A stretch of 36,026 bases of DNA from a virus. The DNA lies in IMG/VR virus record IMGVR_UViG_3300020204_000179, positions 1-36,026 of that record, one strand, 5' to 3'. This document shows positions 979 to 12,146 of this stretch, one piece after another. Within the stretch, counting starts at the first letter, position 1. The number at the start of each line of letters is the position of its first letter. A program made the position numbers and the translations under genes. The notes beneath the pieces were generated by a model that had not been told where the DNA came from, ran no database searches, and saw only the letters and a program-made list of their open reading frames with translations.

Positions 979-1776
979 TCAAAGATCTATTTTACGTGTT
1001 GGACTAAAATCTTTAGAATCTCCAAAAAACTCTATGGTTTCATCAAATCCAAAATTATCATCTGGATTCGCATCAATAGGATCTGGAGTAACAGTATATC
1101 GCATTTCTCTTTTTGCAGTTTGCACATCTGTTGATGTGTAAATATCAGCCTGAACTTTACGAATAAGTCCATCTGTAGAATCTGCAATAGGACCAAACAG
1201 ATAAGTTTTTGCAGTAAAACTTAGAGTGTAGATAAGTGCTCTTCTTGTTGAGAAATCACCTTCATAGTCATCTTGAAAAGTAATGTTTTCCAAAACAACA
1301 GGAATATCTCTCTTTTCTCCAATTGAATCAACCAAATCTATTGTCATATTAAATGATGGTTGGAAAAATGGTAATATCTGTTCTACAATTTGCAAAGCAT
1401 CATCATTTAACTTGGTTAAAATATTAAGATCAAATCCAATATTATAAGGCACTGGCATAAAAACTTTTTTTAAGTTTTGTCCATCTAGTACTTTAAATGT
1501 TTGAGTTACATTAGATTTTCTTGTTGGATCATACCTGATAGACGTCATTTCAAATGACATTCTAGGTAATGTAATTTGAGTTGCTTTATTGAGTTCTGGT
1601 TGTTGTTGGATTCTTGCTAGAAACTTTTGAACAGGTGCATATGCCAAAGGAACTCTAATATCACTTATATCATTACCATCTCTATCTTCATGGCGAACGT
1701 GAATCTGATTAAAAAGAGTTCCAAAAGAAATGACTGTTTTCCTAATAATTTCGTGATAAAAATAAGTTCCTAACAT
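979..1776 (-). CDS. 15: Tail completion / sheath stabiliser gp15
   Basis: 265 residues (T4 gp15 has 272). gp15 forms the hexameric ring that caps the tail tube and sheath and joins the tail to the neck. Matches to T4 gp15 include the start MLGTYFYHEIIRK (T4 MFGYFYNSSFRR), the stretch IRVPLAYA near residue 40, the near-identical QIVEQILPFFQP around 130-141 (T4 QIVEQILPYFQP), and a C-terminal part with STRRALIYTLSF (T4 LSRRRIEWSLTF) and DGLIRK. Its ATG shares one base with the stop of the 226-aa gene (TAATG), so translation is probably coupled. It lies directly before gp16, as in T4, but is separated from gp14 by four extra genes. Confidence 0.92.
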   Translation of the reverse strand: MLGTYFYHEIIRKTVISFGTLFNQIHVRHEDRDGNDISDIRVPLAYAPVQKFLARIQQQPELNKATQITLPRMSFEMTSIRYDPTRKSNVTQTFKVLDGQNLKKVFMPVPYNIGFDLNILTKLNDDALQIVEQILPFFQPSFNMTIDLVDSIGEKRDIPVVLENITFQDDYEGDFSTRRALIYTLSFTAKTYLFGPIADSTDGLIRKVQADIYTSTDVQTAKREMRYTVTPDPIDANPDDNFGFDETIEFFGDSKDFSPTRKIDL

Positions 1777-2456
1777 TAATAAGTACCAAATGGATTTGAT
1801 TCTGAAAAATCTATAATAAAATCTGATTCTTCTTCTATTTCATCATTTTGACTATATTTATCGTATGTGTCTTGTTGGTTAAAGGTTTTAACACTGTAAA
1901 TGGCGCCAGATTTGGTTCCAACGATATTTTCTCCAGTAACAAATCCTTTTGTTGTTGCTCCTATACCAACATAAGAAATCTTTAAAATCTTAGCATCAGA
2001 ATCCCATTCCTTGACTCTAGCTTTTGTTTTTGATCTAGATCCAACTATAACTTCATTAAACTCGTAATTGCCATATCCTGTTAATATATTTGGATTTCCT
2101 ATTGTAACTTGTGGAGCAACAGTATATCCAAATCCTGGATTTGTAATGTAAATAGACCTTACATCATTATTCGCAGACCCTATTGAAGCAATTCCAACAG
2201 CAGTTCCCAAACCACTAATAACGGGATAATATCCAGATCCAGATGATAAAACTCTTATACTTTTAATCTGCCCATCTGCAATGATTGGATAAAAGGAACC
2301 TGCAATAGTTGGCGTTGTTGTTCCTAAAATGACAACTTTTGGTGGATTAGTAGTAGCATACCCAGTTCCACCATTTACAACGGTAAATGCCTGTACTCCA
2401 TAATTTTGATTAAAAGTTGCTTGTACTATGGCTCCGGATCCAGGTATTATTTTCAT
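1776..2456 (-). CDS. Glycine-rich modular virion protein (GSGY modules)
   Basis: 226 residues of unknown function, probably structural. The first ~130 residues hold three copies of a short beta-type module centred on NGGTGY, SSGSGY and NPGFGY, each followed by a PP/VTI-like strand. The next ~60 residues resemble another module common in this window (GSRSKTKARV ... GFVTGENIVGTKSGA). The tail is acidic and ends FGTY. The same modules occur in gp14, in the 4007-aa protein and in the 2435-aa protein, so this looks like a free-standing version of an accessory domain. It lies 24 nt after the 844-aa gene, with an AATAAATA box between. A GGAG sits about 14 nt upstream, rather far for a good ribosome site. 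It overlaps gp15 by one base. Confidence 0.82.
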   Translation of the reverse strand: MKIIPGSGAIVQATFNQNYGVQAFTVVNGGTGYATTNPPKVVILGTTTPTIAGSFYPIIADGQIKSIRVLSSGSGYYPVISGLGTAVGIASIGSANNDVRSIYITNPGFGYTVAPQVTIGNPNILTGYGNYEFNEVIVGSRSKTKARVKEWDSDAKILKISYVGIGATTKGFVTGENIVGTKSGAIYSVKTFNQQDTYDKYSQNDEIEEESDFIIDFSESNPFGTY

Positions 2457-2480: not shown

Positions 2481-5015
2481 CTATTTATTTTTTTTAAGTG
2501 CTTTTTTTAATCTTAGTGATAAATTTTTAGATGTTTGATTTTCAACTTCTCTATTAATTTTTTCATCATCAGTTTGCGGAATACTCATACTATCAGCACT
2601 ATGAGGATCTAATTTTTTATAGTAGTCAACTTTTTGCCCATATTCTGGATGCCATCCATCTATAGGTTCTGGTGGAGGAGTATCTGGATATCCAAGTTTT
2701 GATGGCTTATCTTGATAGTCAATTATGGGTTTTAACTTATCGGCAACTCTTTTGAAAAGTGGATCTTTATCTGCTTGCATAGTTTGCTGCTCTAGCATTT
2801 TTTGTTCAAACTCTTTATGCAATCTTTCATTTAAAACAGATTGAGTTGTAATGACCTCTTTACCAGTATCGTCAACCATTCTAACAATATAATCATTACA
2901 AATTTCTTCTTTACTTATAATTTTATAAGTGTTATATACATATTCTATTTTTGGAATGTTGTCCTCTTTACCTTTTTTGCCAGTATCAAAATTTCCATAC
3001 ATAATCTTTTTTGATTTAGTTTGATTTTTTTCAGTTAACCATTCCCAAGCATGATCTGACGTACCAATTGAATCCAGAATCATATTTTTTCTTTCTTGAG
3101 ATAGACGAGTATTTTGATGTTTTTCATGTTTACCCCACGTTTTTTCTTCAATTGGTTTAAATGAAGTTGGAACTTCAGCTTGTTTCATTAAATCTTTACC
3201 TATTGTTCTAGGTGGCATCCCAATCACTTTTGGACGATGTTTGATTTTTACTTTTTTTTCTTCTGGTAAATAATAAGGTTTTCTTATTTCTTTAATAACT
3301 TTTCTATGATTCTTTAGGTGGTTCTCATTCGTTTGATATTTCTTACTACGCTCTTCTAAATTCTTCAACATTTTTGGAAGAGCATTTTTAATGAACTTAA
3401 TTTCATCATCAGACAATTTTGTATTATAATATGCTTTTATAACAAGAGTGACAACATCTGGATGCATTCCAAAAGAAAGCATCATGCTTGCTAACATTCT
3501 AATGTATCTATCTTTTCCAACATCATTAAAAACTTTTAGTATTTCATCTTTTGTATCTTCGATGATAAAAGATTCTTTTCTATAATTCCCTCCACTCCAT
3601 CCCAATGCATCCATACCCATTTGTGCCCCAAAAGCAACCCACCCAATTGGTCCTGGTATGGCAGAAAGTGCTCCAGCAACTGCTCCCGTATAATCGCCCC
3701 TACTAATTCTTATTCCCACATCTGCAGCTGCAGCCGCTGCTGCTACTCCTGGAACAACTCTACTTAAAATTTTAGAAGTTTTTGTTCCTTGTGCTCCTAA
3801 TCTGGCTAAGTCATCTGCGGATGCTCTAGCCATATCAACTCCACCTCCAGAAGTTGATATTTGAACTTCTGGAAATCCTGACCAACCCCTACTAACTTTA
3901 GAACCAAATGGATTTTTAATACCATGTTTTCCCTGGTTTGGAGCATCTCCAATCCAAAGATCTCCAGTTTTATCACCCCATGGAACTCCTCTGGTGTCAG
4001 TTGGATCAGCATACATCTTGGCAACATCCACCTCTCCAGGACGAAGTGTTCCCTGGGGTGCAGCATAATCAGTGTTATACCAATCTTTTCCCAATATTTT
4101 TTCGGCTTTTTCTGCACTACCGAATAACTTATCAACAAGTTTTTTTCCACCCCCCTGCCAATCCTTAATATAGTCGATTCCAGGTGGAAGACCTTTTACA
4201 ATTTTATCACCAGCGTATCTTATATCATCCGTAAGTGCCCTAAGTATTCTAGCCCCAACTTGTCCCGCTGTTCCAAGATTTTTCATCAAATCACTAAGAT
4301 CTTTAGCATATTGTTGATTTGCAATTCCTGCAGGTAGATTAGGATCTGGTCCTTTTAGTGTAGTAAATATTTTTTGTATTAATGCTGGAGTTAATACATG
4401 TGGATCACTAATAATTTTTCCAAGCCATCTGCCCAAATTATCAATATCAACTCCACTACTTGGATCAGTAACATCACTTCTTGGTATGGGTTCAAAAATA
4501 CCAATATAAAAAATCCTATAATCTGATACTTTATTTTCTTTATATTTTTGCCAATACCAAACTGCTTGTGCCAATGTTAATTGACTATAACTAATAAAAC
4601 CATCCGTACCATTCCAGTCTTCTAATGATCCAGATAATCTTGCCAAGTTAACAACTTGTCTAGTATCTTTTTGAATATATCCAATAGCTGTATAATCTCC
4701 ATCTGGGAAATAAACACTAACCATTGGACCAAGTATATAACTATTGTCTCCTGGTGGTTGCTCTGTTAATATTTCACCAGCCGCATTGAATAATCCAGAG
4801 GTATCAGTTCCATTTGGATTTGAGTCAGCAGACAAATTTAAACCTTCTCTATAAACCGCTGGAGTGACAATAAATTTGTCAGGTTCCACAGCATACATTG
4901 TTGTTGTATTATTAGTTGGTATTTCATTAAGCAAATGAAGTTTTTCATCAATTTGAGTCGATCTCAAATGATGCCTGATTTTATTAAACTTACTTGCGTT
5001 TCTTTTTTCAGGCAT
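2481..5015 (-). CDS. Large hypothetical virion protein with hydrophobic Ala/Gly segment
   Basis: About 844 residues from the ATG at 5015; a TTG at 5027 would add four residues and is less likely. I do not recognise a named T4 counterpart. Residues ~1-180 look globular (SYILGPMVSVYFPDGDY, then LARLSGSLEDW). Residues ~423-473 form an unusual Ala/Gly-rich hydrophobic stretch (VVPGVAAAAAAADVG and AVAGALSAIPGPIGWVAFG) that could contact or insert into a membrane. The last ~300 residues are Lys/Glu/Pro-rich, probably extended or helical, and end LRLKKALKKNK. It lies between the subtilase and the 226-aa module protein, inside the block inserted between gp14 and gp15. A structural or ejected protein is the best guess from context. 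An AATAAATA box ends 30 nt before the ATG; no clear Shine-Dalgarno is seen. Confidence 0.82.
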   Translation of the reverse strand: MPEKRNASKFNKIRHHLRSTQIDEKLHLLNEIPTNNTTTMYAVEPDKFIVTPAVYREGLNLSADSNPNGTDTSGLFNAAGEILTEQPPGDNSYILGPMVSVYFPDGDYTAIGYIQKDTRQVVNLARLSGSLEDWNGTDGFISYSQLTLAQAVWYWQKYKENKVSDYRIFYIGIFEPIPRSDVTDPSSGVDIDNLGRWLGKIISDPHVLTPALIQKIFTTLKGPDPNLPAGIANQQYAKDLSDLMKNLGTAGQVGARILRALTDDIRYAGDKIVKGLPPGIDYIKDWQGGGKKLVDKLFGSAEKAEKILGKDWYNTDYAAPQGTLRPGEVDVAKMYADPTDTRGVPWGDKTGDLWIGDAPNQGKHGIKNPFGSKVSRGWSGFPEVQISTSGGGVDMARASADDLARLGAQGTKTSKILSRVVPGVAAAAAAADVGIRISRGDYTGAVAGALSAIPGPIGWVAFGAQMGMDALGWSGGNYRKESFIIEDTKDEILKVFNDVGKDRYIRMLASMMLSFGMHPDVVTLVIKAYYNTKLSDDEIKFIKNALPKMLKNLEERSKKYQTNENHLKNHRKVIKEIRKPYYLPEEKKVKIKHRPKVIGMPPRTIGKDLMKQAEVPTSFKPIEEKTWGKHEKHQNTRLSQERKNMILDSIGTSDHAWEWLTEKNQTKSKKIMYGNFDTGKKGKEDNIPKIEYVYNTYKIISKEEICNDYIVRMVDDTGKEVITTQSVLNERLHKEFEQKMLEQQTMQADKDPLFKRVADKLKPIIDYQDKPSKLGYPDTPPPEPIDGWHPEYGQKVDYYKKLDPHSADSMSIPQTDDEKINREVENQTSKNLSLRLKKALKKNK
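2482..2489 (-). promoter_or_regulatory. Candidate late promoter box (AATAAATA)
   Basis: One mismatch to the T4 late-promoter sequence TATAAATA. It overlaps the stop of the 844-aa gene and ends 25 nt before the start of the 226-aa gene. Such boxes are also expected by chance in AT-rich DNA; spacing and placement in a gap are the main support. Confidence 0.4.
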
Positions 5016-5045
5016 TAGAATATTCAATAATGTATTGGTTTGTAT

Positions 5046-5053: not shown

Positions 5054-6733
5054 TTATCCACCATATACTGTACTCTTTCTTGGCCAAACATTACCACGTG
5101 CTGGTCTCTCCCAATGATTTGTTCTTGGTTGTGTTATTCCTACTAATTTTCTATCCTTAACATGAATGGCATATAGATTTGCTGCACCTTGTAAAGAAAC
5201 CTCATCGGTATAACTATCTTCTCCACTATTTAAAAGTGCATTTTTTTGCCAGTACTTATCAATATATTCTAATGCCATTTTTTGAGTTATTCTTGGATAA
5301 TGTTCGGCAAGACATGCAAGTAATCCAGAAACTTGAGGGCATGACATACTTGTGCCATTTAGTTTTCCTCTTGTATAAGTTGCATTTCTTGGATCTGGAA
5401 CGGGACCAGTAGTTAAATGTGAAGATTGGATATTTGTCCCAGGTGCAAAGACATTAACTCTTGGTCCACAATCACTAAATGCTCTTTTTGCGTCTACAAC
5501 AGCAGAGTTAGTAGCTCCAACACATATTGTACTTGAACCAACACCAGGACTACTTCCTTGATGATAGAAAACACCAAATGCTGAAATAGTTCCAACTGAA
5601 CTAGAAATATATGTTGCGGCAACTCTATTATTATAATCAATTCCTCCTAAAACATCTATTTTCATCCTACCATTACCTGAAGAACCACATGTAATAACAC
5701 CTTCATTAATCATGTCTTCGATATCTGCATTTATTGAACCTGAGTTTGTACTAACAGTTATCGTACCAAGACCATATGATCCACCAGAAGATGTATATTG
5801 CATTACACCATGACTCTCAAGTTGTTGATCAGTAAACGGACCATAATATGTGGTCCCCCTCCTCAGAACATACATACTATTTCCAATACCAGTATTACTA
5901 TCTCTATGTAAAGTTAATTCTATTCCCCAACTATTATTAACAATTGTTGGGTTCTTATGACCCGTCAATGGATTGATGGGTTTAGTTTTATGAAACATTC
6001 TTATATAATCATAGACTCTGGATGTTTGTATCTGAGAATTAGTTCCAGGATAAGAAAATACTGTAATATTGTAAATGTTAGCGTCTCTTGCCCATCCTTG
6101 AGTATTTCCTGCAACTGTACCTGCTACGTGTTGACCATGAGATTCCTGGCCTACTGGTACATATTGATATGGTGCTGATGCGGGTAATCCTAGTGCTGCA
6201 TTGTGTTGATACCAATTGTATGCAACAAATCTAGAACCACCAGTACCATCTGGATTTTTTGCATACTCTGGGTCATTGCCATCAATAATAGTGTCTAATA
6301 TAACAACATCAACATTTTTTCCAGTACTTGTTGTTGTAATAACACCAACTTGATTTGGAATTCCATCAGCACCCCAAGCATATATTTGCTGACCCCTTTC
6401 ACACCTCAGTAAACCCCAATTTGTATGATTGGAATTCTCAGTAGCTCCTTTATTGAAAAAACTAGAAGATTGCTCAAAAGTTGTCACAGGAGTCATAGAT
6501 CTTAGAAAATCTGCAGATTCAACAAAAATAACTCTTTCATCATTAATAAGTTTTTTTACCTCATCATCTGTCAGAAAATAATGTGTATTCCTACTAATCG
6601 GTCTTCTATCACAACAATGTACTTCTCTCTCTGGAATTGTATCAGATCCGCCAGGAGTTTCTAAATCATGATATAAACATTCCAGACATTCATAATCTTT
6701 TGCTGTTACAATGTATTCTTTTAGATCTTCCAT
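5054..6733 (-). CDS. Subtilisin-like serine protease (peptidase S8 family)
   Basis: 559 residues. The catalytic triad of a subtilase is complete: Asp147 in VDVVILDT, His199 in ESHGQHVAG, and Ser462 in LNGTSMSCPQVSG. Asn354 in SSGNG fits the oxyanion-hole position, and VNNSWG (265-270) is another family landmark. Residues ~1-75 resemble an I9-type inhibitory propeptide, ending LTDDEVKKLINDERVIFVES, followed by TNWGLLRC (104-111), like the NWGLDRI start of mature subtilases. No signal peptide is evident, so it probably acts in the cytoplasm during assembly or is carried in the virion. The N-terminus is Cys-rich (C15, C18, C40, C41). The gene overlaps the preceding fibre-like gene by one base (TGATG). 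The T4 assembly protease is gp21, an unrelated family, so this is an extra protease. Possible roles are maturation of a tail or fibre protein, or attack on host surface protein at infection; neither is shown by the sequence. Confidence 0.93.
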   Translation of the reverse strand: MEDLKEYIVTAKDYECLECLYHDLETPGGSDTIPEREVHCCDRRPISRNTHYFLTDDEVKKLINDERVIFVESADFLRSMTPVTTFEQSSSFFNKGATENSNHTNWGLLRCERGQQIYAWGADGIPNQVGVITTTSTGKNVDVVILDTIIDGNDPEYAKNPDGTGGSRFVAYNWYQHNAALGLPASAPYQYVPVGQESHGQHVAGTVAGNTQGWARDANIYNITVFSYPGTNSQIQTSRVYDYIRMFHKTKPINPLTGHKNPTIVNNSWGIELTLHRDSNTGIGNSMYVLRRGTTYYGPFTDQQLESHGVMQYTSSGGSYGLGTITVSTNSGSINADIEDMINEGVITCGSSGNGRMKIDVLGGIDYNNRVAATYISSSVGTISAFGVFYHQGSSPGVGSSTICVGATNSAVVDAKRAFSDCGPRVNVFAPGTNIQSSHLTTGPVPDPRNATYTRGKLNGTSMSCPQVSGLLACLAEHYPRITQKMALEYIDKYWQKNALLNSGEDSYTDEVSLQGAANLYAIHVKDRKLVGITQPRTNHWERPARGNVWPRKSTVYGG

Positions 6734-7491
6734 CAGGTTTCTAGTTGAAGAATTGTTAGTGTTACTGTAATATTTGCCGTAGATCCACTATTATTTTTAA
6801 CTTTAGCGTAGATAGTTGTTGATACTGGATTATCATTATTAAATCCGATAGTTGCTGGAGTGATTGTGGCAATACCAGCAGAAGCAGTGATTACTTCAGC
6901 AATAACCCCAGATCCTGCGGTTGGATCTGATGATTGTGATCTAGAAGCATCATTTGCTCTAGAGGCAGAATCTGTATATATTGTTATCCAAGAAGCGTGT
7001 GAAGATTGAACTTTATATAAAGTATAAGATTTAAATCCAGCAAAACTTATGTTTGCGGATGCATTATTTGCAATTGATCCAGTGGATTGTGAAACTTCTG
7101 TTCTTACTCCAAGTTGATTACTACCAACAAAAACGGAAGTTACCGTGCAAATTCCAGATGAAATCGGAGAAACACTTAAATAATCACCAAAATCAATTAT
7201 TGTTGCAGTTCCAATACCTGAACCATTATCTCTAACTGTCACTCCAGCACCAACATTATTATTGTTGCCAGAAACAGAAACTCCAGTTAATGAAGATCCA
7301 TCCCCATAATATTTTGTTGCTGTTACGATTCCTACAGTTAGGTTTGGATTACCTGCAAATATAGTTGTTCCGTTTCCAATAGCACCATAAATCTCATTAA
7401 AATTTTTATTAATCTTTATGGCTGCCGATAATAGTGTGTCACCATTACCATCATTCGGTATTACTCCAGTTGATATTCCTAATTTTGCCAT
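6733..7491 (-). CDS. Fibre-like virion protein
   Basis: 252 residues. The N-terminus STGVIPNDGNGDTLLSAAIK followed by INKNFNEIYGAIG is the kind of leader I associate with tail-fibre and appendage proteins of cyanomyoviruses, probably a particle-attachment segment. It continues with GIVTATKYYGDGSSLTGV, another recurrent fibre motif. The rest is Ser/Thr/Ala/Gly/Ile-rich, consistent with a beta-structured shaft or head, ending NITVTLTILQLET. It is the first gene after gp14 and overlaps the subtilase start by one base, so the protease and this protein are probably made together. A GATAAATA box ends 19 nt before its ATG. Which part of the particle carries it cannot be told from the sequence. Confidence 0.8.
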   Translation of the reverse strand: MAKLGISTGVIPNDGNGDTLLSAAIKINKNFNEIYGAIGNGTTIFAGNPNLTVGIVTATKYYGDGSSLTGVSVSGNNNNVGAGVTVRDNGSGIGTATIIDFGDYLSVSPISSGICTVTSVFVGSNQLGVRTEVSQSTGSIANNASANISFAGFKSYTLYKVQSSHASWITIYTDSASRANDASRSQSSDPTAGSGVIAEVITASAGIATITPATIGFNNDNPVSTTIYAKVKNNSGSTANITVTLTILQLET

Positions 7492-7510: not shown

Positions 7511-7518
7511 TATTTATC
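7511..7518 (-). promoter_or_regulatory. Candidate late promoter box (GATAAATA)
   Basis: One mismatch to TATAAATA. It overlaps the gp14 stop codon and ends 19 nt before the ATG of the fibre-like gene. If active it would drive the inserted fibre-protease block separately from the neck genes. Confidence 0.45.
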
Positions 7519-8626
7519 AATTGCCATCAAAAGTTACTCCAGTTTGGTCAAATGAAATAATCGTAGAATCAAAATTATATGATACTGAGTATGCAAAAGA
7601 ATCTTCTACATTAGTTACAATATTAACATTTGACGATAAACTGGATACTGGAGGTCCTGTAAATGTTACTGTTGGTGTAGTTACATATCCAAATCCAGGA
7701 TCGGTTATAAGAACTCTAATAACACCTTTTGTATTACCTTGAGAGATAGAGCAAGTTGCAGCTGCTCCAACTCCTCCACCACCAGAGAATGTTATGATTG
7801 GTGCTACAGTATAACCAACTCCTGCATTTGTTAAGTAAATATCTTGAAGATTAAAAGATCTTCCTTTATATGTGCCTATTGCAACTGCTGTGGCATTATC
7901 ACCATTATTTCCTGTAGGTGATGGGCTAAAGGTGACTCTTGGTGGAGAAGTATATCTATATCCATCGTTATTTAAATATATTCTATTAACATATCCAGTA
8001 TTAATGAATGATGTTGCATGTGCTGTTGCACCAATACCAATCAAAGATAAGGTAGTTATATAACCTTCTTCTTGAACCTGAGTATCAATTTCTTCAATTG
8101 TAGTATTAATAACTTCATCTTCATATTCAAATAGTTCACACTTTAATTCATAGACATAATTTTTTCCAAGTTGATAAAATGGTTGTTCATGCTCTACAAA
8201 CTTAACTTCAAATATCCTTTCACCTAGTGGAAAATAAACTAAGTCTCCCTCTCTTGGGCGTGTAGATAATACTATTTCGCTTTCTCCAGTTCCATCATCT
8301 ATTGCCCCAAGAAAAGGCGCTATAAAATCTTCAAATCTTTCTTTGGAAATAGTTAAGATTAACTCATCTCTCAAACTCATTCCAAATTTTGTTAAAATGT
8401 CTCCAGATCCAGAATACCCCTCATAACTATTTACATATGCTTCAAGATAAAAATTGTCGTCAAATCTAGAAGATTGAACCTCTTCTATAATTGTTTTTTT
8501 ATTAACAAATTTTCTAGGAATATAAATGACTTCTACACCATAGATCTTTAACTGCTCATTAATGAGATCTTGTACTAATCGTTGTTCGGATGCAGATCCT
8601 TGTAAGAAAAATGGATTAAGTGCCAT
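7517..8626 (-). CDS. 14: Neck protein gp14
   Basis: 369 residues against 256 in T4. gp14 joins the head portal/gp13 ring to the tail. The first ~175 residues match T4 gp14: GVEVIYIPRKFV (30-41; T4 GVECYYVPREYV), AYVNSYEGYSG (63-73; T4 AYLNSFEGYEG), FGMSLRDEL (81-89), REGDLVYFP (125-133; T4 KEGDLIYFP) and PFYQLGKN (149-156). From about 205 to 325 come three glycine-rich modules with cores DGYRY (221), GVGY (269) and GFGY (311), each followed by a PP or AP and a VTF/ITF strand; T4 gp14 lacks these. The modules explain the extra length and may decorate the outside of the neck. The ATG overlaps the gp13 stop by one base (TAATG). Confidence 0.93.
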   Translation of the reverse strand: MALNPFFLQGSASEQRLVQDLINEQLKIYGVEVIYIPRKFVNKKTIIEEVQSSRFDDNFYLEAYVNSYEGYSGSGDILTKFGMSLRDELILTISKERFEDFIAPFLGAIDDGTGESEIVLSTRPREGDLVYFPLGERIFEVKFVEHEQPFYQLGKNYVYELKCELFEYEDEVINTTIEEIDTQVQEEGYITTLSLIGIGATAHATSFINTGYVNRIYLNNDGYRYTSPPRVTFSPSPTGNNGDNATAVAIGTYKGRSFNLQDIYLTNAGVGYTVAPIITFSGGGGVGAAATCSISQGNTKGVIRVLITDPGFGYVTTPTVTFTGPPVSSLSSNVNIVTNVEDSFAYSVSYNFDSTIISFDQTGVTFDGN

Positions 8627-9462
8627 TATCCGATAAAATCATATGGTGGAAGTTCGTGCTCTAGAACCATGACTTGTTTGAGATTTTGTAGTTCTCTTTC
8701 TGCATCTTCATATATTTCTCTACCATTTAACTCAATTCCACCCGGAAGTTTAACACCCCTAAACTTGATTAGATTCTGTCCCCACTGCTTTTTAATAAGA
8801 GCAGTTAAATATTTCTTCAAAAAACTATCGTTATAAACTTTAGTAAAATCATTTGGATTTAATATTCTATAGCAATCCAAAATAATAAAGTTTCCAACAG
8901 ATTGAGAACCCCAATCAATGTCAAGGTATAACCTGTTTTGCCTTTTATTAAATCTAAGTTGTTTGTCGGTTGTTAATAAAAAGTCAATATCTGATAGATA
9001 TGATTTTACCATAGAATATTGCAAAAGTTCAACTGAATTAAAATAATATAAGTCATTTAAAAGTAACTGATATTTGATACTAAACATTCCACCCGAAATG
9101 GAACTTGTGTCAAACTTAAATACATTTTCTATACCAATAACACTATCTGGAACTTGAATATAGTTTGAAGTTTCGTACCAGTTACTTACCAAACCAGTTG
9201 TTGATGTTGCAGTAGAAGTAACAATACCTGGACCAACTGGAGTTTTTGCGGTTGCCTTTCCTCTATCAATATCTTGTTGAGTAATAGGATGTTTTAAATA
9301 CATCCTTTCAACTCCATCAAAATGACGCTCTTGGAAATACTGTAAAGCATCGTCAACTAAATCATCAATCTGATCATCGTCAACATTTATTTCCAAAACG
9401 GGAGCACCCAAGCGCCTTAGACAGTAATCAATAAGTCCTTGTCTGGTTGCTGGTTGCGCCAT
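8626..9462 (-). CDS. 13: Neck protein gp13
   Basis: 278 residues (T4 gp13 has 309). gp13 forms the head-completion ring under the portal and binds gp14. The N-terminal region RQGLIDYCLRRLGAPVLEIN, followed by an acidic DDDQIDDLVDDALQYFQERH, is characteristic of gp13 in T4-like phages. A conserved C-terminal part includes YLTALIKKQWGQNLIKFRG and LPGGIELNGREIYEDA. It sits immediately before gp14 with a 1-nt overlap, the T4 arrangement, which supports the call. The upstream gene encodes a 70-aa coiled coil ending 5 nt before this ATG; GAAGAG about 10 nt upstream may serve as a weak ribosome site. Confidence 0.9.
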   Translation of the reverse strand: MAQPATRQGLIDYCLRRLGAPVLEINVDDDQIDDLVDDALQYFQERHFDGVERMYLKHPITQQDIDRGKATAKTPVGPGIVTSTATSTTGLVSNWYETSNYIQVPDSVIGIENVFKFDTSSISGGMFSIKYQLLLNDLYYFNSVELLQYSMVKSYLSDIDFLLTTDKQLRFNKRQNRLYLDIDWGSQSVGNFIILDCYRILNPNDFTKVYNDSFLKKYLTALIKKQWGQNLIKFRGVKLPGGIELNGREIYEDAERELQNLKQVMVLEHELPPYDFIG

Positions 9463-9467
9463 TTTTT

Positions 9468-9680
9468 TTACTCTTCAGATTTTTTAGATTTTTTAAAACT
9501 ATCAAGTTGGGATTGAAGTTCAAGATTTTTTTGCATTAACTGATTTCTTTGCTCTACAAAATCATCAGTTAATGTTTGAAGTTTTGCTTCTAATAAAATA
9601 TTTTGATTTGTTAGTGTCGCTAATTTTTGATTATATAAACGCACTAAAACATTAATATCAACTTCACTATCATTATTCAT
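9468..9680 (-). CDS. Small coiled-coil protein
   Basis: 70 residues, nearly all predicted helix. Hydrophobic residues recur at heptad-like spacing from about residue 8 to 60 (VLVRLYNQKLATL, then ILLEAKLQTL and LELQSQLDSF), and the end is basic (KKSKKSEE). Small coiled coils in this place are familiar to me from marine T4-like phages, but I know no function. It lies between the fibre-like gene and gp13, separated by 3 and 5 nt. A trimeric neck or fibre accessory is possible, since T4 carries the trimeric coiled-coil fibritin (wac) just before gp13; that is only a positional analogy, and at 70 residues it is far shorter than fibritin. Confidence 0.75.
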   Translation of the reverse strand: MNNDSEVDINVLVRLYNQKLATLTNQNILLEAKLQTLTDDFVEQRNQLMQKNLELQSQLDSFKKSKKSEE

Positions 9681-9683
9681 ATT

Positions 9684-11699
9684 TTAGAATGTTCCTCCAT
9701 CAAGAGTAGATGTCCAATGTGGTTTGTTAATATATATCATAGTAACTGAAGTAGGTATTATATTTAAACTAGTAATAGATCCACTAGTACCTTCTCGATT
9801 AATATTATGAGCATTCCCAAATGCGCTTCCAGTTGGACCATCCTCAACACCAATTAAATCAAGTGCAAACCCTCCACCACCTGCAATAGCAGGTGTAGTT
9901 ATTGCTGAAACTCCAGGTCCTAGAATTCCTGGAACTACACCATAAGCGCCTGTTGTATCTTGTCTTATAATATCTCCAGGATTAACCGTAATTGCACTAG
10001 CTAAAATTAATCTAATCGATGAAATGGCAGTTAGTATTTGTTTTGATGTGCAAACATCAGTCGATTGTGGATTATTAGTTGATCTTTGTAAACCAGTGCT
10101 ATCAAACCATACTACACCACCAGGATTAAAATCACCAGATTGATAATATAATCCTTTAACATCTAAAAATCCTTTAGTTCCAGTAACTAACTCGTTAGAA
10201 ATGGTCGCATCTGGAATATAAGTCCATCGTCTACTATCATTAGCATGTGTTCCATGATTACTAGAAGTGGCGGTGCTATTTGCAATTGAACCATCAATAA
10301 AACCAAAGAATCCAATTTTGTTATTTGCTACTCCAGAATTTGTATTATAATTAAATGCAACACCACGATCAGTATCAGTATCAAATGCGTGAGTAATTGT
10401 TAACTGTGTTGTTGTTACAATACCTGATAAGGTTGCAGAACTTAATGTTATAATTTTATTAGATGTATCATATGCTGTAACAGTACTAGCAGATCCAGCG
10501 CCTAATGCGGCACTACCACTAATAACATCTCCGGTATTAATGCCAACAACTGAATCTAATCTAATAGTACTTACACCAGAAACAACAGTTTCCATAACTG
10601 TTCTAATACTAGTTACGTCTCCAAGAATAACTATGGCGTCGTTAAGACTAACTGTAGTTGAGTTAACTGAAGTTGTAGTGCCATCTACTTGCAAGTCACC
10701 TTTAATGACTACCTTTCCAGCATTATCTAATGAATCTGGATATGGATCTAAGTATAAAACATTTCCAGATCCGGGTAAAGTTGAAATGATATTATCTCTA
10801 ATACGGATATTATCAATATCTGCACCACCATTAGCGTCTAATAAACCAGTTAAGGTCGTTTGTCCAGTGACTCCTAGTGTAGATGAAAGTGTAGTTGCTC
10901 CAGTGATCCCTAGAGTTCCAGAAATACTTACATTATCATCAAGTGTTGTTGTACCGCCTGCAGAATCAATCGTTAAGTTGCCTGTTGAAGTATCAATCTC
11001 ATTGTCATTAGCAATACCAATACGAATATTATCAATCTCTGCACCACCATTGGCATCTACAAGTCCAGTGAATGTAGAGATACCAGAAACTGAAAGTTGA
11101 GTTCCAAAGATTGTTGATCCGACATGTAAATTTCTTTTAATACCAATCCCACCATCAAAAATAACAGATCCAGTATCTGCACTTGAACTATCTGTAGTAT
11201 TAGCAAAGAAAACTTGAGATCCTTCAATTTCTAACCTATCATCAGTTAGTTCATCATATCTTATTTTTAAGTCTTTATTTGTACCAAAACTTAAATAGGT
11301 ATCATCTGGAATATTAATTTGTCCAATTCCATTCGGATCTAGTACAATATCACCATCAGTATTTGTTGATGATACGGTATTAGCATCAAGTCTTAAATTA
11401 TCAACATTCCACAGATCTACTTTTCTATCACTATCAAGAATAGCTACAAAACCATTCGCAGCAAGTACACTATTTGTAGCACTAGAGACGTTGCCTGGTG
11501 TATGGGACATCATAGATGTATAATAACGTCCACCAACTGGAAGTACATTATTACCATCATCACCTAGAAAAATTCTATCCTTATTTTCATTTACTCCTGT
11601 TGCACTACCATTACCACTTACATAGGCAAGTTCACCCCATTCTAATCTTGTAGGTTTCTGAGTTCCAGCGGATCTTTTAATCCTAATAATACTTGCCAT
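9684..11699 (-). CDS. Fibre-like virion protein with internal repeat
   Basis: 671 residues. The N-terminus MASIIRIKRSAGTQKPTRL followed by EWGELAYVSG is a leader I associate with appendage/fibre proteins of cyanomyoviruses. The body has Ser/Thr/Gly/Asp-rich repeats. A 73-residue unit occurs twice, marked by VDANGGAEIDNIRI and LDANGGADIDNIRI, and is visible in the DNA as a repeat with a 219-nt period starting near 10802 and 11021. The stretch between reads like stacked beta turns (GTLGITGATTLSSTLGVTG). It ends WTSTLDGGTF, resembling the end of the preceding 75-aa protein (LDINGGNF). The ATG overlaps that gene's stop by one base. The likely role is a tail or neck fibre; receptor binding is inference. 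Confidence 0.85.
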   Translation of the reverse strand: MASIIRIKRSAGTQKPTRLEWGELAYVSGNGSATGVNENKDRIFLGDDGNNVLPVGGRYYTSMMSHTPGNVSSATNSVLAANGFVAILDSDRKVDLWNVDNLRLDANTVSSTNTDGDIVLDPNGIGQINIPDDTYLSFGTNKDLKIRYDELTDDRLEIEGSQVFFANTTDSSSADTGSVIFDGGIGIKRNLHVGSTIFGTQLSVSGISTFTGLVDANGGAEIDNIRIGIANDNEIDTSTGNLTIDSAGGTTTLDDNVSISGTLGITGATTLSSTLGVTGQTTLTGLLDANGGADIDNIRIRDNIISTLPGSGNVLYLDPYPDSLDNAGKVVIKGDLQVDGTTTSVNSTTVSLNDAIVILGDVTSIRTVMETVVSGVSTIRLDSVVGINTGDVISGSAALGAGSASTVTAYDTSNKIITLSSATLSGIVTTTQLTITHAFDTDTDRGVAFNYNTNSGVANNKIGFFGFIDGSIANSTATSSNHGTHANDSRRWTYIPDATISNELVTGTKGFLDVKGLYYQSGDFNPGGVVWFDSTGLQRSTNNPQSTDVCTSKQILTAISSIRLILASAITVNPGDIIRQDTTGAYGVVPGILGPGVSAITTPAIAGGGGFALDLIGVEDGPTGSAFGNAHNINREGTSGSITSLNIIPTSVTMIYINKPHWTSTLDGGTF

Positions 11700-11926
11700 T
11701 AAAAGTTACCCCCGTTGATGTCTAAATTCTGTGTAGCCCCTGGTGTCAGAGTTAATGTTGCTTCCCATTTTTGTATGGCACTATTATAAACAATGACCAT
11801 TCCATTTTGTAAAGTGCCAGCACTAACATCACTAAGTTCAGATAATGAAAGACCTTGGGCACCAGCCAAGGATGATATGACTTTTACAGCATTTTGTTGA
11901 CCGACTCTAACTTTAATATCAGCCAT
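11699..11926 (-). CDS. Small fibre-associated virion protein
   Basis: 75 residues. It contains SLSELSDVSAGTLQNGMVIV and YNSAIQKWEAT, a short module I recall as recurring in cyanophage structural proteins (a 'LSDV ... NG.ilvyn ... W.a' pattern). It ends LDINGGNF, much like the C-terminus of the next gene's product, which hints at a shared assembly element. The function is unknown; a small fibre or baseplate-associated protein is likely from context. An exact TATAAATA box lies 31 nt before the ATG, so it probably starts a transcript with the fibre gene, which it overlaps by one base. No Shine-Dalgarno is visible. Confidence 0.78.
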   Translation of the reverse strand: MADIKVRVGQQNAVKVISSLAGAQGLSLSELSDVSAGTLQNGMVIVYNSAIQKWEATLTLTPGATQNLDINGGNF

Positions 11927-11957
11927 TTATGAAAAAATAGTCTCAGGATCTAAAATA

Positions 11958-11965
11958 TATTTATA
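11958..11965 (-). promoter_or_regulatory. Late promoter box (exact TATAAATA)
   Basis: Exact match on the coding strand to the T4 late-promoter element, in the 40-nt gap between the 59-aa and 75-aa genes and ending 31 nt before the ATG at 11926. In T4 this element is read by RNA polymerase with the late sigma factor gp55. One of three exact copies I found, all in gaps. Confidence 0.72.
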
Positions 11966-11966
11966 C

Positions 11967-12146
11967 TTAGTCAATACCTGCAATACTAAAAGATGAAATA
12001 ACTTCTTGTTGTTTTAAATAAAGTTTGTAGTAAAGTTTTGCAAACTCGCGTAACTCATTAACGTCTAAAGTATCAATCAATCTAGCATGTTTTTCATATT
12101 CAAATAACTTATTTAAGTTTTCAAGTTCAATTTTTTCTGGATTCAT
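11967..12146 (-). CDS. Small helical hypothetical protein, 59 aa
   Basis: A 59-residue protein starting MNPEKIELENLNKL and ending SFSIAGID. It is charged and predicted helical (EYEKHARLIDTLDVNELREF, then AKLYYKLYLKQQEVI), probably a two-helix hairpin. Its ATG overlaps the end of the 74-aa gene by 20 nt in another frame, a typical translational-coupling arrangement, and its stop lies just before the TATAAATA box of the next unit. Without it the stretch 11967-12126 would be an unexplained gap in an otherwise gapless block. I recall small proteins of this style near baseplate genes of marine T4-like phages; the function is unknown. Confidence 0.68.
   Translation of the reverse strand: MNPEKIELENLNKLFEYEKHARLIDTLDVNELREFAKLYYKLYLKQQEVISSFSIAGID

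Follow-up and report, generated by a model that had tools for sequence, protein, structure and literature searches.

Why would a T4-like phage carry a complete subtilase among its neck and tail genes, and on which proteins would such an enzyme act? This question is raised by the window, which is the entire 36,026-nt (36-kb) virus record IMGVR_UViG_3300020204_000179. A 559-aa open reading frame with an ATG start on the minus strand (5054..6733) matches Peptidase_S8 (PF00082) over residues 138-486 (5.8e-25; score 88.6 against a cut-off of 21.8 bits) and PHROG 9158 over residues 4-554 (1.8e-93). Asp147 (6293-6295), His199 (6137-6139), Asn354 (5672-5674) and Ser462 (5348-5350), all on the minus strand, are present in the order of the S8 family, as the original prediction had stated. 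Alignment of the window protein with 13 isolate sequences, extended to 81 distinct sequences by the addition of metagenomic loci, revealed the Asp, His and Asn in 81/81 and the Ser in all 79 sequences that cover its position, the other two stopping before Ser462. The frequent triad loss that the original prediction had named as refuting evidence was therefore absent from this set. We conclude that the gene encodes a real and complete subtilase, which, judged from its sequence, is probably active. PF00082 was the only Pfam match, which rejects an identity with the T4 prohead protease gp21 and agrees with the earlier statement that gp21 is unrelated. No hydrophobic signal-like stretch was detected in the subtilase, as had been predicted, and on this ground we reject a secreted protease. 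Scanning for promoters and terminators gave scores no higher than those of shuffled sequences.

An AlphaFold2 model of the subtilase (pLDDT 86.9) was aligned by VIA-align from about residue 86 to 532 with keratinase, aqualysin and proteinase K-like enzymes (Z 34-36; rmsd 2.0-2.6 over 270-279 residues). The modelled enzyme thus has a proteinase K-like subtilisin fold with a mature part that begins near residue 86, and the structure match and invariant residues place the catalytic domain at residues 86-526 (5156..6478, minus strand). Ahead of it lies a propeptide-like domain (residues 1-80; 6494..6733, minus strand), which in the model follows the beta-alpha-beta-beta-alpha-beta order of I9 propeptides over residues 5-73 and contains a RRPISRNTHY motif that is conserved among homologues. 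Although Pfam returned no Inhibitor_I9 match at E 0.01 in the subtilase, the structure prediction that had been proposed as a check yielded both the S8 fold and an I9-like fold where a propeptide-like region had been expected. The anticipated activity and self-processing are probable. The enzyme shares its catalytic fold, triad, oxyanion Asn and propeptide-like N-terminal domain with aqualysin I, keratinase 5wsl and proteinase K; unlike these proteinase K-like subtilases, it features long insertions, no signal peptide, a C-terminal tail linked to a fibre domain and a location in a phage tail-gene cassette.

As a gene, the subtilase is no novelty, since cyanophage annotations include it. Homologues occur in 40 phage records, nearly all of cyanophages, where they are annotated as 'subtilisin-like serine protease', 'peptidase' or hypothetical, and viral contigs contain at least 555 relatives. 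P-SSM2_297, for example, is annotated 'contains PF00082' and assigned to cluster T4-GC 292. Cyanophage S8 proteins of PHROG 9158 and T4-GC_292 (P-SSM2_297, S-CREM1_165 and the 'subtilisin-like serine protease' of S-H38) have the same triad and are homologous to the window subtilase over nearly its whole length, with 40-42% identity at best for isolate homologues. S-CREM1, S-H38 and Sf-FR1 also share with the window a pairing of fibre and S8 genes and a C-terminal tail, whereas the versions of P-SSM2, S-SCSM1, S-T4 and S-TIM54 lack the tail and the fibre domain, which we term fibC. The only S8 peptidase named by Sullivan et al. (2010) is that of P-HM1 and P-HM2, T4-GC518 (PMC3037559), and the peptidase goes unnamed in the main text of the S-CREM1 paper (PMC9964418), in which 14 virion proteins are covered. 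The literature searched yielded no paper on a module of fibC and subtilase or explaining the subtilase, and the combination of fibC and tail appears to be the new, undescribed part.

The gene directly upstream of the subtilase encodes a short, baseplate-type fibre of 252 aa (6733..7491, minus strand). Its stop codon and the subtilase start codon share one base in the sequence TGATG, which upholds the proposed translational coupling to a fibre-like protein. That protein is gp9/gp10-type, an assignment that derives from about residues 1-75 (7267..7491, minus strand), which matched PDB profiles of T4 gp10 (2.2e-6) and gp9 (7.3e-6); Pfam alone scored this anchor at 21.4 bits, under the cut-off of 25. 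By the sequence of its N-terminal domain, we therefore classify the fibre as a T4 gp9/gp10-type baseplate protein. The remainder includes fibC (residues 127-252; 6736..7113, minus strand), a domain of approximately 125 aa that is modelled as a confident beta-sandwich and that emerged from neighbour surveys as a near-obligate neighbour of the protease. Efforts to equate fibC with a known domain were unsuccessful: Pfam searches on 50 members returned the gp9/10 anchor and otherwise only single or weak matches, and in fold comparison Foldseek retrieved the HFTV1 turret (1.9e-4) and the beta-jelly-roll of the subtilase Tk-SP (about 1e-3), while VIA-align Z scores did not exceed 7.5, too weak for use.

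Within the S8 clade surveyed in viral contigs, which was seeded with fibC-bearing sequences and thus describes that clade, 80 of 81 S8 genes directly follow a gene that terminates in fibC. The junction between the two genes ranges from -20 to +8 nt, the fibre genes encode 90-1724 aa (some clipped by contig ends), and the downstream genes vary. Only one S8 gene departs from this arrangement, namely the latter of a tandem pair in locus L048, in which two subtilase genes (7652-10360, with an enlarged product of 902 aa, and 10362-12008) follow one fibC fibre. Pairs of fibC and S8 were also present in three contigs filed under bacterial MAGs (L186, L187 and L188; Rhodobacteraceae Water_Bin34 and a Rickettsiales MAG), which are probably binned phage contigs. 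An independent search seeded with fibC recovered 84 genes, always with fibC at the very C-terminus of the protein, and the coupled open reading frame was an S8 protease in 60 and another protein in 24. Global correlation between the fibC and S8 trees was not significant, but nearest neighbours agreed in 42 of 64 cases, with 5 expected.

Most of the 24 other proteins belong to a single non-protease family (22 members, two of them placed by operon-type position), for which no Pfam or PHROG match was found in the members scanned. Proteins of this family measure approximately 480-780 aa, many with an '...FCART' end, and are followed by a protein of roughly 75-80 aa (e.g., L137 2213-3688, L022 708-2678, L007 4572-6875 and L010 3172-5502); the family also occurs in S-BM3, S-H9-1, ACG-2014i, Sf-CH1b and S-SCSM1. 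Another of the 24 is a kumamolisin-like S53 sedolisin (8.8e-31; L131 4383-5660), and further fibC-coupled sedolisins were found (L315-L324); in all of them the Glu, the Asp, the oxyanion Asp and the Ser are intact. Sedolisins thus occupy in other phages the slot that the subtilase occupies in the window, although they represent a different family with Glu-Asp-Ser chemistry; the window encodes none. In S-CAM1, a divergent S8 protease follows fibC.

These dissimilar partners have a C-terminal motif in common. In the window subtilase it reads RPARGNVWPR (residues 543-552; 5078..5107, minus strand), and the fibC-seeded search showed that almost all fibC operons include a single protein bearing an RPxxGxx[FYW]PR tail, which is the subtilase, the S53 sedolisin or the ~75-aa protein behind the non-protease partner. 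Downstream of the catalytic domain, 96 of 106 fibC-coupled S8 proteins bear the form G..[FYW]PR, compared with 1 of 75 uncoupled ones. These counts are not phylogenetically independent, and part of the association is phylogenetic, with coupled and uncoupled S8 proteins forming different groups. The lone uncoupled protein with a tail is the tandem copy in L048, and most of the ten coupled exceptions retain [FYW]PR with the Gly missing. Coupled sedolisins also bear the tail (e.g., RRPATGMVWPRTKTL), which appears as a tandem double motif (GMTFPR...RPxQGQTFPR) at the C-termini of L321-L324 and is absent from all three sedolisins checked that lack fibC. Operons with a non-protease partner carry the tail on the small third gene (e.g., GRRPVSGQVFPRGVYNK), and a tblastn search with one such small protein matched a single phage record. 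The S-CAM1 form is GRRPVEGATYPR. The tail therefore occurs on four separate backgrounds (the S8 clade, the S-CAM1 type, sedolisins and small proteins), and its strict form was found in 0 of 1086 open reading frames from loci without fibC. Where homologues have C-terminal extensions, the tail follows the protease and precedes the extra domain. It is the lowest-confidence part of the AlphaFold2 model of the subtilase, as expected of a free peptide. From these sequence patterns, we infer that the tail is a docking tag that binds fibC.

The genomic setting of the window is T4-like, as originally described, and that of a marine cyanophage: homologues of gp13, gp14, gp15, gp16, gp8 and gp6 were recognised, and P-SSM2 and S-SRM01 are among the nearest records. 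A small coiled-coil-like open reading frame (9469-9680, minus strand) immediately precedes gp13, a position occupied in S-SCSM1 by the 72-aa 'prefoldin' SSCSM1_20. The neck and tail neighbours of the subtilase were likewise confirmed, but the significance that had been attached to this position was not, since the pair of fibre and S8 genes is kept in at least four genomic settings while its surroundings vary. It lies between gp14 and gp15 in L038, L042, L055 and L065, between giant wedge proteins in S-CREM1, S-H38, L057 and L083, and in a fibre region near talC or tRNA genes in S-RSM4, S-WAM2 and ACG-2014i. The fourth setting, in which the cassette divides neck gene 14, is confined to the window lineage among cyanophage S8 loci.

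In this lineage, an N-terminal part of head-closure gene 14 (369 aa, gp14 residues 1-325; 7517..8626, minus strand) and a C-terminal part (226 aa, gp14 residues 299-471; 1776..2456, minus strand) flank a cassette of fibre, subtilase and an 848-aa protein. Each half is a chimera where it meets the cassette: the 369-aa part has a wedge-type C-terminus that ends like the giant wedge protein upstream of the S-CREM1 pair, and the 226-aa part has a wedge-type N-terminus that starts like the gene downstream of that pair. The same order is found in three divergent contigs (L023, L024 and L025), so that an assembly error can be dismissed as the cause of the split. In the simplest scenario, the cassette derived from an S-CREM1-like order through recombination between related beta-repeat domains, and its insertion into gene 14 would explain the neck location. 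The large structural candidate that had been noted behind the subtilase does exist as the 848-aa open reading frame (2481..5027, minus strand), but its structural nature gained no support from a PHROG match or a Pfam match above cut-off. This protein occurs in the cassette of the window lineage only, with partial homologues in L023, L024 and L025; its N-terminal third is conserved in L024 and L025 and its C-terminal part, separately, in L023, which suggests a mosaic gene.

We propose that the subtilase is probably an exchangeable, fibre-borne protease that docks by its tail on fibC and is aimed at host surface proteins. The upstream gene would produce a short fibre whose N-terminus is a baseplate anchor of the gp9/gp10 type and whose tip is fibC. 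The subtilase would fold with its own propeptide, remove it near residues 80-86, be kept on fibC by the RPxxGxxWPR tail and be carried on the particle near the baseplate, where it would cut surface proteins of the cyanobacterial host during adsorption. We infer four of these elements, namely the binding of the tail to fibC, self-processing, the virion location in this phage and a host surface protein as substrate. An enzyme carried on the particle is favoured by two lines of analysis. S8 homologues are fused to Laminin G, Ig-like, esterase-like, cupredoxin-like, tail-fibre and Gly-rich domains. In the record of S-SCSM1, for which 45 virion proteins were reported by mass spectrometry (PMC9602691), the label 'virion protein' stands on an S8 homologue, on a fibC fibre (231) and on the partner of that fibre (232). 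This evidence is indirect, as such labels cover 48 coding sequences as opposed to the 45 reported detections, and the labelled S8 protein is one without fibC and tail. The domain content of the esterase-like, Ig-like or cupredoxin-like fusions (L006 7989-10913, L014 6030-12452 and L190 4992-8399) suggests cyanophage structural proteins with several enzyme activities or an adhesive role.

The original prediction had offered two functions for the enzyme, digestion of host surface proteins from the particle or cleavage of a tail or fibre protein in the course of assembly, and the former fits better. An assembly protease would act in morphogenesis on its partner fibre (e.g., by removing fibC if that domain were a folding chaperone) or on a different tail protein, comparable to the chaperone domains of fibres that cleave themselves but working in trans. 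Its tight coupling to the fibre gene, the absence of a signal peptide and the conservation of fibC as a C-terminal domain, similar in size to the known chaperone domains of fibres, speak for this role, which we nevertheless regard as unlikely. A non-protease family stands behind fibC in 22 of 84 cases, so fibC needs no protease, which argues against fibC as a mere substrate; replacement by an S53 sedolisin would require two families to cut the same site and suggests that proteolysis itself is under selection; and lectin, Ig-like and esterase-like fusions would be odd for a processing enzyme. The missing signal peptide and the placement among late structural genes would also suit a protease that acts off the particle, either unbound in the host cytoplasm or once the cell has lysed, but a near-obligate, baseplate-anchored fibre partner in several genomic settings, the common tail motif, the structural-domain fusions and the S-SCSM1 labels make this improbable. 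Serine proteases are used for head maturation in some tailed phages, yet a capsid maturation protease in place of gp21 is scarcely credible here, as S8 genes sit in tail or fibre gene sets and S-SCSM1, which has an S8 gene, also has a prohead protease annotated separately in its head gene cluster (S-SCSM1_40).

The fibre-borne arrangement that we prefer has functional analogies. In T-even phages, the tip protein gp38 is encoded directly behind the fibre gene for gp37 and sits on the fibre tip. The subtilase is likewise encoded right after a fibre on whose C-terminal tip it is proposed to sit, but it is a protease, the anchor is gp9/gp10-type rather than a long tail fibre, and neither the window fibre nor the subtilase gave a Pfam or PHROG match to gp37 or gp38. 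Like phage tailspike depolymerases, the subtilase would be a particle-borne enzyme that acts on the host envelope; in contrast to them, it would attack protein instead of polysaccharide and be a separate polypeptide mounted by its tail. We see an even chance for the broader idea that fibC and the RPxxGxx[FYW]PR tail are a general snap-on coupling for exchangeable fibre proteins of aquatic phages, proteases of two families included, with the mounted protease being a virion-borne protein depolymerase comparable to the polysaccharide ones.

The locus thus places an annotated gene in an unremarked and testable context, with the novelty residing in the module of fibC and tail. The model would suggest a function for PHROG 9158 and T4-GC_292, both of which currently lack one. 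If true, a short, transferable docking tail would provide a concrete rule for predicting particle-borne phage proteins. The receptors that myoviruses use on marine Synechococcus and Prochlorococcus, and the surface barriers that they meet there, are largely unknown, and a fibre-mounted protease, if true, would point to host surface proteins as targets.
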